From positions 1-37,255 of the forward strand of contig JAUUDF010000050.1 of NCBI GenBank assembly GCA_030826885.1: a stretch of DNA of 37,255 nt, in the 5' to 3' direction. This DNA comes from Sulfurovum sp. (GTDB lineage: Bacteria; Campylobacterota; Campylobacteria; Campylobacterales; Sulfurovaceae). The notes beneath the pieces were generated by a model. The model did no database searches and was not told the origin of the DNA. It saw only the letters and a list, made by a program, of their open reading frames with translations. This document shows, in pieces, positions 28,467-37,056 of the stretch. The translations under genes were made by a program, and so were the position numbers. Numbering within the stretch: the first letter of the stretch is position 1; every line of letters begins with the position of its first letter.

Positions 28467-28489
28467 AGGATGCACCGAGAGTGCATCCT
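28467..28489. other. Hairpin between convergent recG and hpf
   Basis: AGGATGCAC and GTGCATCCT form nine base pairs with a CGAGA loop. Symmetric, without a T-tract on either side; it could serve as a weak bidirectional end or as RNA-protecting structure for both transcripts. Confidence 0.5.
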
Positions 28490-30265: not shown

Positions 30266-31110
30266 TAGAATACCGCCTTTTCTTTACAGGATGTAATGTT
30301 GTAGTCATCGCCGACTTCCTCTTGGACACAGAGCTTGAAACGTATGGTACTGCCGGCTATTTTAAATTTGAAGGTAGTGACATTCTTTAAGAGAAGCTCT
30401 TTGGTGTTGCCTCTTGCTGTAGCAGGTGAAGCAGCAAAATCATAGTAGAGGTTCAAGTCCCCGTTTTCTACAACCAGCGCATAGGAGGTCCAAGCAAGTT
30501 TGTAATGTTCCTTAATCGTTTTATTCGCTGCTGATGCAAGTGTAATGATGTCCCCTGCTGCAGATTGAACTGCATAGGACGTGGAATCGTTTGGAAAGTA
30601 GACATAGGCATTTGCAATGCTTTTTCCACTGGGAGAGAGGTTGCCGATAATGGTATTTGCAAGCGGTAAGTATGAGCCGGATGTTTTCATATGGTTAATA
30701 TCAGTACTTGGGTTCTCAACATCGACGAAACCGCTCCAGCCCGATCTTCTGTCAGCATTGCTGCGAATGGCTTCAAAACTGTCACTGTCAGCAGAGACCC
30801 ATTGCAAGCCTTTGTAGTTGTTGCCACTGATACTGAGACCTACTTCAGCGCTTTCAAGGGTGTTGTCATTTTTAATACGGAAAATCGTGCCAGGTATGGC
30901 ATCTTTAATACGGTTTGCAATGGCAAGAGAAGCCAGCTCAGTCTTGATTGTCGCGCGATGTGTTGCCCGTTGTATAATATAGCTTTCATACACCTGCGCA
31001 ACGATCTGCGAACCGATACCCGAGACGATACCCAGGATGATGATGGCAAATATCAGTTCGATCAGAGTATAGGCAGATCGGGATTGTTGCAGTAGTAACC
31101 TAAGTTTCAT
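30265..31110 (-). CDS. Type IV pilin-like protein (GspJ/PilW type)
   Basis: Second pilin-like gene, 281 residues. After the leader MKLRLLLQQSRSA comes YTLIELIFAIIILGIVSGIGSQIV, with Glu at +5 and Ala at -1. The large C-terminal part is beta-rich and ends KLCVQEEVGDDYNITSCKEKAVF with two cysteines near the end. The size and pattern fit a GspJ/PilW-type minor pilin. The start overlaps the stop of the upstream gene as TAATG (31108-31112). Confidence 0.75.
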   Translation of the reverse strand: MKLRLLLQQSRSAYTLIELIFAIIILGIVSGIGSQIVAQVYESYIIQRATHRATIKTELASLAIANRIKDAIPGTIFRIKNDNTLESAEVGLSISGNNYKGLQWVSADSDSFEAIRSNADRRSGWSGFVDVENPSTDINHMKTSGSYLPLANTIIGNLSPSGKSIANAYVYFPNDSTSYAVQSAAGDIITLASAANKTIKEHYKLAWTSYALVVENGDLNLYYDFAASPATARGNTKELLLKNVTTFKFKIAGSTIRFKLCVQEEVGDDYNITSCKEKAVF

Positions 31111-31844
31111 TAAAATGCCTTTGATGCAAGTTTGTATGCACCGATGTTACAGACAAATGCTTGCAATACGATTTGCTTGGCGTACTCATCGACACCGCTA
31201 GTACTCGTGAGCGTTACGGTAACATGTTTAATGTTGGTACTGCCTGCAGTTGTGTCTGCGAGTCCATTGAATGAAATAATACCATCTCCACCGGTTGTGT
31301 CATAGGGCCCTGTACCTGCAACAGGGCTATCGAGTGCATAGCTGACGGTAGTCGCTACACTGATCTGTTTGTCTGCAACATCTGATTTTCCTGCTGCAGC
31401 TACATTTTGCAATACATAAGTGCCGATGAAATCATCGACATCATCCTCAGGTGGTTCTCCTGCATCTTTCCCAAGGTTTGCAGGAGCGGTAGCGTTGATA
31501 TTTTTTGTTCCGTCTTCACGAATGATGGAACGGCTGCTCTCTTTGGGGGTTCCAATACGCCAACTGTTGAGTTTAAAGAAGGAGAGATTGTTGTCAGCCG
31601 TTGTCGATACAATGAGAATTGGGTCAGGATACTCTTCATTGGTATCGCCTTCATCCCAGTGGTACCCCAAAATCATATTCATGTGTGAAGCCGCTTCAGT
31701 AATGGCCTCCTGCTGCAGTCCAACAAAGGAGCTTTTTGTGGCTGTGCTTATGAGTTTTGGTGCAGACATCAGTACCAGTCCCATAATGACAAGTGCAAAA
31801 ATGAGTTCGATCATGGCGGCGGCAGTTCGCATTTTCATTGACAT
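31110..31844 (-). CDS. Type IV pilin-like protein
   Basis: First pilin-like gene after the giant protein, 244 residues. The leader MSMKMRTA is followed by AAMIELIFALVIMGLVLMSAP with Glu at +5. The usual Phe at +1 is Ala here. The body is beta-rich and Asp/Thr-rich, with a single Cys near the end (FVCNIGAY). I start it at ATG 31842-31844, which overlaps the giant gene's stop as TAATG and matches the other junctions; an ATG six bases upstream (31848-31850) is in frame. It is probably a minor pilin like GspI/PilV, but the identity is uncertain. Confidence 0.72.
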   Translation of the reverse strand: MSMKMRTAAAMIELIFALVIMGLVLMSAPKLISTATKSSFVGLQQEAITEAASHMNMILGYHWDEGDTNEEYPDPILIVSTTADNNLSFFKLNSWRIGTPKESSRSIIREDGTKNINATAPANLGKDAGEPPEDDVDDFIGTYVLQNVAAAGKSDVADKQISVATTVSYALDSPVAGTGPYDTTGGDGIISFNGLADTTAGSTNIKHVTVTLTSTSGVDEYAKQIVLQAFVCNIGAYKLASKAF

Positions 31845-34800
31845 TACCATCCCAGTCGCCTGTTGGTTGTTTTACTGGAGTTTGTTTCCATGACATGGCC
31901 AGTTTTTCCGTATCCTGCCCAGTCACCGATGTTGATACATTTGACTCTGTAGAACGGTGAGGGAATGCTGTTACTGTCTTTATTGTAGATCAGCCAGTCA
32001 CTTGTGGTTGTAGCAGTCGTCGTATCAAAGTCTATATCGGTTGTGTTGGGTGCTGTACAAAGTACCTGAATATTTTTATCACGACCGTTGGTATTGCCGT
32101 TTATAGTCACTGTAGCCGGATCCTGCGTTCCATTTAAGGTTGAGAGAATGGAACCGTTGGTAGCTCCCAGGGTAATATTGCCGTCATTTTGAGACATGTT
32201 GTGATCGACAGAAAGGAACCACTGGTATTGGTTTGTCTGACCATTGACAATGTCAACACCCGGACAGTTTGCTGCACTTGTCGGCCATCTGTTGCAATAA
32301 ACCTCAACCATAATAGGTGTATTTTGGGTGCCTGTGGTAGTTTGGTAGAAATATATACTTGGTTTTGCTCTGGCATAAAGAAAAGTTACATTCTGATCAA
32401 GGTCTTTGTTACCATGTATTTGGTAATTGGGGCTTAAATCCGCATGCAGATTGCTGGGATTTGTCACATAAGTAATGTTGAAATCCTGAAATTCTATACT
32501 TCTGGGATTGACTGGCTTATTGTAATCGCGTTTGAAATTGAATCCAAGATCCATTGTAATGGAACCATTCATGTCTTTTGCAAAGAAATTTTTTGCCTGT
32601 GTAATAGAAATTGGCGTACTGATAGCAGTAGGTTCCGACGGTCTTTCAAAATTATCACTGCCCGAAGCAGGTCTATAGACCACAGTGCTGTCAGTAGTAT
32701 TGTAATCTTTAATGCTGTACCACAAGTATGGTTTTTGTGTGGGTGCAGGAGTGTTATAGACATAGTGAAGACTCATGTTGACATCTTCGGCATAGCAGCC
32801 GTTAACGAAGTTGCTAAGCTGTACCCTGTTTTTTCCTGATGCATAAAAAGTTCCATTCATATTATAGCTCATGTCAGTATTGTTTATATTCAGTGTAGGA
32901 GGGGTATCTATGTATATAAAAGTCTGGCCTCCTGTTCTGGTATATGGCCCAGCCTTTGGAGTAATGCCTGACTGATCAAATGTGTAAGGGTAGAATCTAA
33001 GATGCAGATCAGTATAGTTGGTTGATGTATCCAGATTGGTATGCGTTGAGGAAATATCACATCCGTTGATACCTCTGTTTGCACTTGTTTGGACACTATT
33101 ATCATTTTCAAGGCAGTCTGCATTTTGATTCGTTTTAAAATAGGATGGGTTATGGTGCACCATGTATTCGGATATATGGTCCACTCTTGTCCATTTGGAG
33201 TCTGTCATATTCATGTCATATTCACCCACCTGGTCAATAGGAAATGTCTGCTGTGCTACTCCACCTGTAAAAGGGAAACTGTTGTTTTTGTCATTTGTAT
33301 CGTTACAGTTTGAAACACTGATAGTCGGTGCCCATACAAATGTGGCATTGACCTCGGCACTGTACCCAGGGGATGCATCGTTGCCTAGATGGGTGGTTGC
33401 GTTGACATCGTATAGATAGTTATACCCACCGGCGAGATTTACGTTGGGTGATGGGGCAGGGGCATTATTGGCAACTGCTACGCTGCTGGTAGAAGAAGAG
33501 GTACTTCCATTTGAGTCGGTAATGGTTGCATAAAATGCTTCGGGGCGGATGGCGAAGTTGTCTCTTGAACAGAGTCTTTTGGTTTGGTAGCCAAATATAC
33601 ACTGTAAACAGGTACGCACTTCTCCCCGGGAGAGGCTGAGCCCAGATTGGCCTCCACCACCATGATCGCTATTACCACCGGTATTGTCACCACACCATCG
33701 GCTAATTTGTCTACTGTTTCCGGTTGGCGGTACGAAATCTGGGGAGCATTGTTGACCTCCATAGCTTGGGAAATTATGTAGACGATAGGAGTCACTGCCA
33801 AGTTTATCAAAAATAATTAAGCTTCCATTTCCATCGAGAGGTGCGGAGATGAGGAAAGCGGCATTGGAAGAGGCTTTATCGAAAAATCCTGCATTATCCA
33901 TCTCAGTAACATTGAGATCTCCAAGGTGTTCATTTTTATTTATGAATCCCCAAACTCTAGTGTGACTAATCTTTGTGCTATTATCGTCTGTACATGTGGC
34001 ATCAGTGTAGTGGAATCCATCTGCGCTGATTGTTTCGATCGCTGCTGCTATGAGATAGTCAGTGCTGCCATAAAGGTTGTATTTATTATCATTTCCTGGG
34101 ATCATAAACTCCAGCTTGTAGTGCTCTGGTCTTTTAACAACTTGTGTAGGCAAATTGTAGAAGAAGTCCGGATTTCCTGAGCGTGCCATTGCGGGATGCA
34201 CTATGTTAAAACTGCCATAAGTAGGCTTATAACTTCCACTATCTTGGCAGATACCAAAATTTTTGAGCAGATTCTCCCTGTGTCCAATTTGCAGGTCTGT
34301 TCCATTTATATTGACAACAAGGTCATAGGAAACATGAGCATTGATCGGCATGTCAATATCCCCAGTGTTTCGAATATCAAGACTGTAGTATGTGTAAAGA
34401 TACTCCAGTCCGCCAACATCTCCAATGGTAATGTTACGATCATAAGCATCAGAGACTTCTCTGCCGCTATCACTTAAGAATGTCATTGATTGTCCGGGCG
34501 GTGCGATGTAGGTGCTCTCTCGTTTATAGACAGCCTGTGTTGTATTGATATCTTCAATATGCATAGAAAGATTTTTGAGTGTGACATCAGAGTTTTCTTG
34601 GTTACGGAGGTAAAGTTTCACATCGAGTGGATTATTGGAGTTAAACGATCCTTTTATGCTTAATCCTTGGGTATCTGAAGCGGTGATATAGTTTCCGTTT
34701 TGCCCATAAGTGTAGTCATAGCAAATTTTTGGGACGAAAATTTTAGTAGAAAATGCGAGAACCTGAGGAAAAACCTGATCACAATAATTTTGCATTTTGA

Positions 34801-36094
34801 CAACGCCGAATTTAATTTGGGTAGATGTTTGGTCATGTTTCATTATATTTGACGTATCGAAAATATCAAGGTCCATACCCTGGAAATAGCTTTTATTTGG
34901 GAAAATATCGTGATCTATATCAGTGAATGTCCCGTTGAACTTCTGAGTGCCCCCATTGCGGAAATTGGTCAAGTCAACAAAAGAGCCTGGCGAGTTCCCG
35001 TCTTCAACCTGTAAGGTATCATGATCCATTCCATAATCGCCACCTCCACCGAAAAATAGTAGTTTACTGTCGATCACCCCACTTTTTGGTGTTAAGAAAC
35101 CACTTAATTGAATAGTGGTTTCGAAGGGGATGCCTGATCCATTACCCCAAGTTAAAAACTGATCGAATCCGTTAAAGATGGAGACATTGTGGTAGCTGAA
35201 AGCATTAGGATGGCTATTGCTAGTCGCCAAATCAACATTGTAAACTACAATAAGTGACCAACCTCCAAAGTGTCCCATATGAACCCCAGAATACCATGCT
35301 CCGTTAGGTTCGTTGATATGGGAAAAATACATATCACTGGGATTATCTACTCCTGGTGTTGCCATAACGTTGCCCACAACCAGTTGGTTATTTGTTGATG
35401 GCTGTATCCCACCATTTTTTATAATATTGGTGACATCGACATAAGCTTCGTAAAAATACCGAAACTGACCATTACGGGTATAGGCGTAATGGTATGTGCT
35501 ATGATCCTTGGTGTTCCCACCTATCGGAGCGGTAATGGTGTGCACTATATTGTCGGGTGTACGGAGGTGGACACTGTTCCATCCGCTCACTTTAGTGTCT
35601 ACTTCTGCAGTTGACGATGCGGTACCGTGTATTTGGCCCTGCCAAAAGAGTCCAGCCCAAATAATATGACCGGCATTGACATAATCCGGCAGGCGAAGGT
35701 TTGCTGCCGAAGAGTTTTTGTTATCGGTTCTGTCCCCTAGGTTCGTAATGTATGTATCGTCATTAATGGCTACAGGATCGGATCCGGCAAAATATGGTGT
35801 ATTCTTATTACCAGACAATACTGAATTTCCCGTAGCAATAAAATCTCCCAGTACGATATTTTTACTACCACCATTAATGAGTGAGAAGTTTTTGTTGACA
35901 TCAATATCGATGTAGCCATTACCATTACTCTGCCATCCATAACTATAATTGAAAGTCATTAGTGCAATAAAAATCATTCGGATCATTTTTTGTAGCCCCC
36001 ATTCCCTCCTCCATTTTAACGGTAAGATCAATATAATAGTTAAAATAAACAGCGGAAAGAATAAAAGATTAAATAAATATTTACTATATTCCAT
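31844..36094 (-). CDS. Giant exported protein of the pseudopilin operon
   Basis: I do not recognise a family with certainty. From ATG 36094 it is 1416 residues: hydrophobic segments at 7-27 and about 38-52 (IRMIFIALMTFNYSYG, which could itself be a signal peptide from ATG 35986), then a long extracellular part. The N-terminal half has repeated beta-sandwich-like features (AGLFWQGQ, YFYEAYVDVTNII, GGWSLIVVYN, LLFFGGGGDYGMD). The middle has a Gly-rich loop and a cysteine cluster CLQCIFGYQTKRLCSRDNFAIRP (Cys842), where FAIRP resembles the DUF6701/MshQ region of mannose-sensitive pilus accessory proteins. The last third is Asn/Thr/Asp-rich with paired cysteines. The ribosome-binding site AAAGG (about eight bases upstream) favours 36094 over the TTG at 36148. 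Being first in a pilin operon it resembles PilY1 or MshQ in position: a large tip adhesin. Function is inferred only. Confidence 0.75.
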   Translation of the reverse strand: MEYSKYLFNLLFFPLFILTIILILPLKWRREWGLQKMIRMIFIALMTFNYSYGWQSNGNGYIDIDVNKNFSLINGGSKNIVLGDFIATGNSVLSGNKNTPYFAGSDPVAINDDTYITNLGDRTDNKNSSAANLRLPDYVNAGHIIWAGLFWQGQIHGTASSTAEVDTKVSGWNSVHLRTPDNIVHTITAPIGGNTKDHSTYHYAYTRNGQFRYFYEAYVDVTNIIKNGGIQPSTNNQLVVGNVMATPGVDNPSDMYFSHINEPNGAWYSGVHMGHFGGWSLIVVYNVDLATSNSHPNAFSYHNVSIFNGFDQFLTWGNGSGIPFETTIQLSGFLTPKSGVIDSKLLFFGGGGDYGMDHDTLQVEDGNSPGSFVDLTNFRNGGTQKFNGTFTDIDHDIFPNKSYFQGMDLDIFDTSNIMKHDQTSTQIKFGVVKMQNYCDQVFPQVLAFSTKIFVPKICYDYTYGQNGNYITASDTQGLSIKGSFNSNNPLDVKLYLRNQENSDVTLKNLSMHIEDINTTQAVYKRESTYIAPPGQSMTFLSDSGREVSDAYDRNITIGDVGGLEYLYTYYSLDIRNTGDIDMPINAHVSYDLVVNINGTDLQIGHRENLLKNFGICQDSGSYKPTYGSFNIVHPAMARSGNPDFFYNLPTQVVKRPEHYKLEFMIPGNDNKYNLYGSTDYLIAAAIETISADGFHYTDATCTDDNSTKISHTRVWGFINKNEHLGDLNVTEMDNAGFFDKASSNAAFLISAPLDGNGSLIIFDKLGSDSYRLHNFPSYGGQQCSPDFVPPTGNSRQISRWCGDNTGGNSDHGGGGQSGLSLSRGEVRTCLQCIFGYQTKRLCSRDNFAIRPEAFYATITDSNGSTSSSTSSVAVANNAPAPSPNVNLAGGYNYLYDVNATTHLGNDASPGYSAEVNATFVWAPTISVSNCNDTNDKNNSFPFTGGVAQQTFPIDQVGEYDMNMTDSKWTRVDHISEYMVHHNPSYFKTNQNADCLENDNSVQTSANRGINGCDISSTHTNLDTSTNYTDLHLRFYPYTFDQSGITPKAGPYTRTGGQTFIYIDTPPTLNINNTDMSYNMNGTFYASGKNRVQLSNFVNGCYAEDVNMSLHYVYNTPAPTQKPYLWYSIKDYNTTDSTVVYRPASGSDNFERPSEPTAISTPISITQAKNFFAKDMNGSITMDLGFNFKRDYNKPVNPRSIEFQDFNITYVTNPSNLHADLSPNYQIHGNKDLDQNVTFLYARAKPSIYFYQTTTGTQNTPIMVEVYCNRWPTSAANCPGVDIVNGQTNQYQWFLSVDHNMSQNDGNITLGATNGSILSTLNGTQDPATVTINGNTNGRDKNIQVLCTAPNTTDIDFDTTTATTTSDWLIYNKDSNSIPSPFYRVKCINIGDWAGYGKTGHVMETNSSKTTNRRLGW

Positions 36095-36148: not shown

Positions 36149-36405
36149 AAAAGTTATAACATTAAAATCACCCTAACGTACAATTAGCACCCTTTTCTTT
36201 TCATTAAGGCTGGTTTAACTTTTATTACATATATGAGTTAAAATATATCATATCTAAGATAAAAGGGATATAAAAATAAATATAACAAATGTCTTTAAAA
36301 AACTATTTCATCTATAGATTTACATGATGATATGTACAAAGAAGACATTAATGCATTTTTTACGAACTTTGAGCTATGATAGTACAAACCAATAGCGAGG
36401 TGAGC
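36149..36405. other. AT-rich divergent region, giant gene and bamD
   Basis: Roughly 250 bases, strongly AT-rich by eye, containing the promoters for the giant/pilin operon (minus) and bamD (plus). It holds no open frame worth calling and no clear inverted repeat. GTTATAAC at 36152-36159 is palindromic and could hold the minus-strand -10 box; TATGAT at 36375-36380 may serve bamD. AT-rich flanks are typical targets of nucleoid-silencing proteins. Confidence 0.4.
36375..36380 (+). promoter_or_regulatory. Candidate -10 box for bamD
   Basis: TATGAT in the context GAGCTATGATAG, 25 bases before the bamD ATG, with no -35 match. It overlaps a spurious upstream ATG in frame with bamD. Confidence 0.35.
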
Positions 36406-37056
36406 ATGCAAATAAGAAATATTCTTTTGTTGGGGATGGCCACGGTGATCTTTGTTGTTTCAGGATGCGGAAAAACAGACGAGGTCGCCGAGTTCAACAA
36501 ACCCGCGCTCTACTGGTACAAGAAGATTGCGGGGAGTATCAGCAGTAGCAATATGGACAAGGCTGACGAGTACTACATTTCGCTTAAAAGCGAGCATATG
36601 CTCTCCCCACTTATGCCAACAGCCATTACGATGCTGGCGCATGCGCACATGCAAAAAGAGGAGTATCTGCTTGCAAACTACTATTTTGACGAGTTCAACA
36701 AGCGCTATGCCGATGACGAAAGCAGGGAATATACTGAGTTTATGAAATTGAAGGCCTCGTTTCTTGGCATTAAAGATGTCTATAAAGACCAGAAGCTGAT
36801 TATGGACAGCATTAACAAGGCAAAAGTCTATCTGATGCGCTATCCGGGCTCGGAGTATGCGCCGCTTGTCAATACACTGCTTGTACGGCTGCATATGAGC
36901 CAGTATTTGCTCAATGAGAACATCGCTGCACTCTATGAGCGTATAGACAAGCCTGAAGCTGCGAAGATATATAGAGAGAAAAACAAAAGTTCCCTGGTTG
37001 AGATGGCGGACATTACACCGCCACAGCAGGGCTTTTTGGGAAAAATATTTGATTGA
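36406..37056 (+). CDS. bamD: Outer-membrane assembly lipoprotein BamD
   Basis: Essential TPR lipoprotein of the BAM complex that inserts beta-barrels into the outer membrane. The 216-residue product has a lipoprotein signal (MQIRNILLLGMATVIFVVSGC, Cys21 at the VSGC lipobox), then NKPALYWYKKI and TPR helices (LANYYFDEFNKRYADDES, YLMRYPGSEYAPLVNTL). I use ATG 36406 because GAGGTG lies just upstream; ten more codons from 36376 would bury the signal peptide. In Campylobacter jejuni I recall bamD next to lon, which may be the next gene. The stop lies within a perfect hairpin. Confidence 0.9.
   Translation: MQIRNILLLGMATVIFVVSGCGKTDEVAEFNKPALYWYKKIAGSISSSNMDKADEYYISLKSEHMLSPLMPTAITMLAHAHMQKEEYLLANYYFDEFNKRYADDESREYTEFMKLKASFLGIKDVYKDQKLIMDSINKAKVYLMRYPGSEYAPLVNTLLVRLHMSQYLLNENIAALYERIDKPEAAKIYREKNKSSLVEMADITPPQQGFLGKIFD

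Follow-up and report, generated by a model that had tools for sequence, protein, structure and literature searches.

A widespread MshQ-like exported protein encoded with minor pilins in Campylobacteria: a probable pilus-tip module encoded apart from its machine

Introduction

The analyzed stretch of DNA, referred to below as the window, comprises 37,255 nucleotides of a contig of Sulfurovum sp. (assembly GCA_030826885.1, contig JAUUDF010000050.1). It contains a gene for a very large exported protein that precedes four pilin-like genes. The question raised by this locus is whether it encodes a new surface-fibre system, as the first-pass annotation proposed, or a component of a known type of pilus, and in the latter case which machine it uses. 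Little is known about the pili of Sulfurovum, Sulfurimonas, and Sulfurospirillum, the dominant sulfur oxidisers of vents and sediments, and the locus supplies a defined set of genes for a candidate organ of attachment in them. A probable origin of the Campylobacter jejuni ctsT competence locus can be proposed from it as well. In Sulfurovum indicum, expression of an MshL gene increases on elemental sulfur (PMC10045233).

Organization and conservation of the locus

The genes of the locus and its two conserved neighbours are as follows.

36376..37056, plus strand: bamD (YfiO; PF13525), a conserved divergent neighbour that serves as the locus marker
31844..36094, minus strand: giant exported MshQ-like protein P0001, 1416 residues by translation of the open reading frame
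31110..31850 (alternative start 31844), minus strand: PilV/MshD-like minor pilin P0002
30265..31110, minus strand: PilW/MshO-like minor pilin P0003
29801..30265, minus strand: PilX/MshP/GspK-like minor pilin P0004
29127..29804, minus strand: FimT/FimU/MshC-like minor pilin P0005
28497..29030, minus strand: ribosome hibernation factor HPF (PF02482), a conserved downstream neighbour

The reported exported protein of 1416 residues with four overlapping pilin-like genes is indeed encoded here. The giant/PilV-like, PilV-like/PilW-like, and PilW-like/PilX-like junctions are each TAATG, with a one-base overlap, and the PilX-like/FimT-like junction is ATGA, with a four-base overlap; such overlaps suggest that the five genes are co-transcribed. 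The PilV-like gene has two in-frame ATG starts, 31850 and 31844, six bases apart. The start of the giant at 36094 is plausible, since relatives from Sulfurovaceae have extended N-termini resembling that of P0001. The HPF gene, with a terminator-like stem nearby (28467-28489), probably lies outside the function of the pilin operon.

The giant was found in 98 of 298 genomes of the class by protein search and in 147 of 296 by profile search; a genome scan with the single giant protein as query yielded no match. Thus, about half of the sampled class genomes carry a member of this unannotated, so far unnamed protein family. Its distribution follows that of the PilW-like gene (counted at E <= 1e-20): 145 genomes have both, 2 only the giant, 6 only the PilW-like gene, and 143 neither, the two sets being phylogenetically structured, so that a Fisher value overstates independence.

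The same gene order had been proposed as something to look for in relatives, and it is seen again at the BamD locus across many families: giant, PilV-like, PilW-like, PilX-like, in some cases FimT-like, and then HPF. Because this order is kept across families, the five-gene arrangement is far beyond chance. We considered 78 named loci from Sulfurovum, Sulfurimonas, Sulfurospirillum, Sulfuricurvum, Nitratifractor, and others, of which 69 have room for the comparison. The PilV-like gene immediately follows the giant in at least 63 of these 69; in the other six, the locus lacks one end of the giant, carries tandem giants, or has offset coordinates. Relatives lacking the neighbouring pilins, which the first-pass annotation had named as counter-evidence, are a minority: in four genomes from families f2 and f4 (L051, L065, L068, and L073) the giant lacks adjacent pilins.

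Several loci deviate from the standard arrangement. In genus g21 (L060, 2080-8592; L061, 3737-10636) the giant lies beyond HPF, and the pilins are in the usual place. Two or three tandem copies of the giant are observed in L040 (3788-14365), L121 (2173-12747), L091 (4561-14623), and L102, which suggests a diversifying tip repertoire. One giant (L114, 2-5136) comes from a contig filed under a Thermoproteota archaeon metagenome-assembled genome, most likely a misbinned campylobacterial contig.

Domain structure of the giant protein

All parts of the giant are encoded on the minus strand.

35936..36094, minus strand: extended N-terminal signal region with two hydrophobic stretches, residues 1-53, a putative export signal
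34655..35935, minus strand: beta-rich N domain, residues 54-480, also present in surface-protein genes of Thermus and Deinococcus
33725..34654, minus strand: beta-rich middle domain, residues 481-790
31847..33703, minus strand: C domain, residues 798-1416, divergent DUF6701/MshQ-type and reaching the C-terminus (hhalign, local HMM, AlphaFold)
33542..33610, minus strand: CxxC...CSRDNFAIRP motif, residues 829-851, at the start of the C domain

The N, middle, and C domains form the constant core of the giants, with 266-373 residues between the N and C domains. The C domain ends at most 10 residues from the C-terminus in 91 of 103 giants, and any extra length is N-terminal: more than 200 residues (at most 1646) precede the N domain in 27 of 99 proteins, and in some of them this arm contains Ig, cadherin, Calx-beta, or tandem-95 repeats. 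The cysteine cluster with FAIRP noticed previously is real and conserved, as C829, C832, and C842 of the motif are kept in 21-23 of 26 relatives. In total, 13 cysteines are conserved in at least 19 of the 26, which suggests disulfides in this exported protein.

No family matched P0001 in Pfam and NCBIfam at E <= 1, and no match was found among PDB sequences. Structure prediction in segments, also suggested by the first-pass annotation, yielded confident beta-rich AlphaFold models (pTM 0.78 for the C domain and 0.82) and no specific fold: Foldseek searches of both halves against PDB produced generic Ig-like or beta-sandwich matches at TM <=0.31, and the N-domain model had no convincing fold match there. 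The fimbrial adhesins CfaE, RrgB, and antigen I/II are among these low-TM matches, to which we assign no functional weight.

Plasmid proteins of Thermus and Deinococcus contain the N domain too, as exemplified by a DUF11 protein from T. thermophilus pTT27 (L205, 6728-9718) and by L206 and L207. There are no annotated pilins near these plasmid genes, and the N domain is thus a mobile surface module.

Relationship of the C domain to MshQ

The identity of the giant is provided by its C-terminal half, via DUF6701 (PF20419), which we take to be the MshQ family. The Pfam search for DUF6701 had no match in the genome of the window (G000), P0001 included. The model does match the C-terminal part of unambiguous members of the giant family, among them an orthologue (L094, genome G195) that scores above the gathering threshold with 81.8-84.1 bits and sits at the same BamD-giant-pilins-HPF locus. 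The filtered hmmscan reproduced the DUF6701 match for L094 only; the scores for L091, L092, and L095 come from one earlier search.

We built a C-domain HMM from 51 sequences. In L094 it covers residues 753-1209 (E 4e-48), the same stretch as the DUF6701 match, and it also finds the MshQ-like proteins of MSHA-like operons in L092 (E 5e-35) and L093 (E 3e-25). In hhalign, the C domain aligned with L092 and L093 at 99.7% (E 7.9e-27), and a further hhalign comparison of the C-terminal half with DUF6701 members gave E 1.3e-45. When the MshQ-like C domain was used to search plasmids for MshQ of gammaproteobacteria, no match was obtained; the assignment of P0001 to DUF6701 is by way of relatives and profile comparison rather than by direct comparison with gammaproteobacterial MshQ. 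By profile comparison, then, the C-terminal half of the giant is a divergent domain of the DUF6701 (MshQ) superfamily. The same result disposes of the weakest alternative, that the giant is a PilY1/PilC orthologue, a suggestion raised by its large size, its export, and its four minor-pilin partners, which recall the pilVWXY1 clusters, but scarcely credible given that the Pfam PilC/PilY1 models match neither P0001 nor any of 26 relatives and that the C domain aligns with the DUF6701 family instead.

The two MSHA-like operons (L092, 3-14304; L093, 6953-19799) are complete, are headed by a DUF6701 protein, and represent a second system in two relatives. The secretin of the L092 operon is of MshL type (248.4 bits against a cut-off of 250.2), and its ATPase carries an MshE-related c-di-GMP domain. 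The MshQ-like protein of this operon has Laminin_G_3 and H_lectin at the place occupied by the N domain in the window protein; no LamG or lectin-type N-terminal module was detected by Pfam in P0001. A TafC name match in L092 falls inside the LamG stretch and was dropped.

The minor pilins

The Pfam N_methyl model (cut-off 21.2) recognizes the PilW-like (22.6 bits) and FimT-like (22.7 bits) proteins, the latter found mainly in Sulfurovaceae. The PilV-like pilin is under this cut-off and has Glu5. The PilX-like pilin has a weak PilX_N match (19 bits, cut-off 25.5) and a weak GspK match. Glu5 is absent from this protein and from its 30 relatives; a missing Glu5 is a trait of GspK-type tip subunits.

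The partner machine

The window contains no GspE/PilB-type ATPase, secretin, or A24 peptidase; the genome's own copies are on other contigs, in agreement with the earlier view that the machine is encoded elsewhere. That machine had been described as a pilus or a type II system, and of these two the pilus is much the likelier. The window genome has a complete type II secretion system (T2SS) on contig C47, with a GspD-type secretin (375.6 bits, over the cut-off), as well as two PilT-type ATPases (C29 and C38) and one A24 peptidase (C6). Given this T2SS, and given that MshQ-type proteins are exported, the pilins might constitute an alternative pseudopilus of the T2SS, with the giant as its secreted substrate. 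However, the C47 operon is already equipped with its own GspG, H, I, and K-like pseudopilins, and the giant tracks the minor pilins across genomes. Moreover, genome G123 carries the same type of giant-pilin operon and has a single secretin, which is MshL-type (270.1 bits, above the cut-off), along with two PilT-type ATPases. Its pilins must therefore serve an MshL-type machine, and a T2SS is not the partner there. We consider the T2SS explanation very unlikely.

The pilins of the window genome likely use an MshL-type machine as well. At the edge of contig C20, only the 3' end of an ATPase gene remains, and a platform gene comes next; the platform protein is 83% identical to that of the relative G225, and the neighbour gene is the same. 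In G225, the operon located after Era encodes a secretin of the MshL type (256.6 bits, above the equivalog cut-off), an AAA protein at the position of MshM, an MshEN ATPase, and, last, the platform protein; there are no pilins within this MshL/MshM/MshE/MshG-type operon. The MshEN domain of MshE in relatives scores 69.8 bits. The combination of MshL-type secretin, MshEN ATPase, and platform is present in close relatives, and the incomplete window genome shows the ATPase 3' end and the platform only. An MshL-type secretin matches in 270 of 296 genomes, which makes its co-occurrence with the giant uninformative as a test. A GspG-like pilin standing alone at the beginning of contig C38 (L189, 133-645) is a candidate for the major pilin.

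Functional interpretation

Taken together, the locus most likely encodes an MshQ-like pilus-tip module that is class-wide, has an N domain of its own, and is encoded apart from the machine. A new fibre system is not supported, as the C-terminal half of the giant belongs to the DUF6701 superfamily and an operon for an MSHA-type type IVa pilus probably supplies the machine. The previously noted resemblance to PilY1 or MshQ with minor pilins, with a probable tip protein leading the operon, is borne out.

Most probably, the five genes encode an MshQ-like complex that primes an MSHA-type type IVa pilus and forms its tip. On the inner-membrane platform, the PilV-, PilW-, and PilX-like pilins would assemble together with the FimT-like one, the PilX-like protein being outermost among the pilin subunits, with which its missing Glu5 is consistent. 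The minor pilins would carry the giant, docked onto them by its DUF6701-like C domain. The N domain, supplemented in many relatives by the Ig, cadherin, or Calx-beta arm, would then lie outermost and bind the ligand. The tip would be driven through the MshL secretin by the MshE/MshG motor and platform, PilT-type ATPases would retract the fibre, and the giant would serve as an MshQ-like adhesin with an additional part in starting pilus assembly. We infer the tip location, the docking by the C domain, the adhesive role, and the use of the MshL/MshE/MshG machine; the priming and tip roles are drawn by analogy with characterized systems. MshQ is a putative MSHA adhesin, and its loss leads to less surface MSHA in V. 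cholerae (PMC7096442); in V. fischeri, mshQ plays a part in host specificity (PMC4094467); and PilY1 with four minor pilins forms a priming and tip complex (PMC7541494).

The best surviving alternative is that the pilin set forms a DNA-uptake (competence) pseudopilus, in which the giant is a DNA- or cell-binding tip and not a general adhesin. It draws on the matching chromosomal place in genomes of the C. jejuni-like genus g15. There, beside FliW, ProC, BamD, and Lon, we observed a pilin of 98-100 residues, a PilW-like gene (220-242 aa; E 4e-8 and 4e-11), and a PilX-like gene (E 9e-13 and 6e-16), with no giant; FliW, ProC, and Lon were named by position and length, and BamD by family search. 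In C. jejuni, ctsT (cj1077) encodes 100 aa and proC (cj1076) 243 aa (PMC8308473), and this giant-less trio, by its position and gene lengths, is probably the ctsT competence locus. The occurrence of the MshL-type secretin in nearly the whole class fits the same explanation. Yet the competent C. jejuni lineage manages without the giant, which is therefore unnecessary for uptake there, and the long repeat-bearing arms and the lectin modules of the MSHA-operon paralogue favour adhesion. A competence role for the giant is thus unlikely.

A reduced set of short pilin-like genes with a ProC-like gene, and no giant, is found near BamD in family f6 (L204, 5174-6863).

We also put forward, tentatively, a broader scenario. 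An MSHA-type pilus could be common to the whole class Campylobacteria, with the BamD-HPF locus as its ancestral tip module, and the giants could have diversified into exchangeable surface-binding tips, perhaps for mineral sulfur or partner cells in vent lineages. In the C. jejuni-like and Arcobacter-like lineages, loss of the giant and shrinkage of the PilV-like pilin to CtsT would have turned the adhesive pilus into a DNA-uptake pseudopilus.

Comparison with known systems

The closest known counterpart is MshQ of the MSHA pilus. Both are large exported proteins with MshD/O/P-like minor pilins and a homologous C-terminal domain, and MSHA-type machine genes are present in the genomes of relatives. 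Differences concern (i) gene order, as MshQ is the last in mshB-A-C-D-O-P-Q, whereas the giant is the first in its pilin operon; (ii) linkage, the pilin operon of the giant being separated from the machine genes; (iii) the N-terminal part, with a different N domain and no LamG found; and (iv) the C domain, which has its own CxxC...CSRDNFAIRP motif and goes undetected by the Pfam model itself. The T2SS pseudopilins GspH-I-J-K are similar in forming a minor set with one member lacking Glu5, but the T2SS of the window genome is separate and has its own set. Within the Cts transformation system of C. jejuni, the ctsT locus probably occupies the same chromosomal place and contains PilW-like and PilX-like genes; it differs by the absence of the giant and by a first pilin of only ~100 aa. 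Finally, the PilY1/minor-pilin complex of Myxococcus and Pseudomonas also combines a giant exported protein with four minor pilins and, despite the lack of a PilY1/PilC domain match in the giant, probably does the same job.
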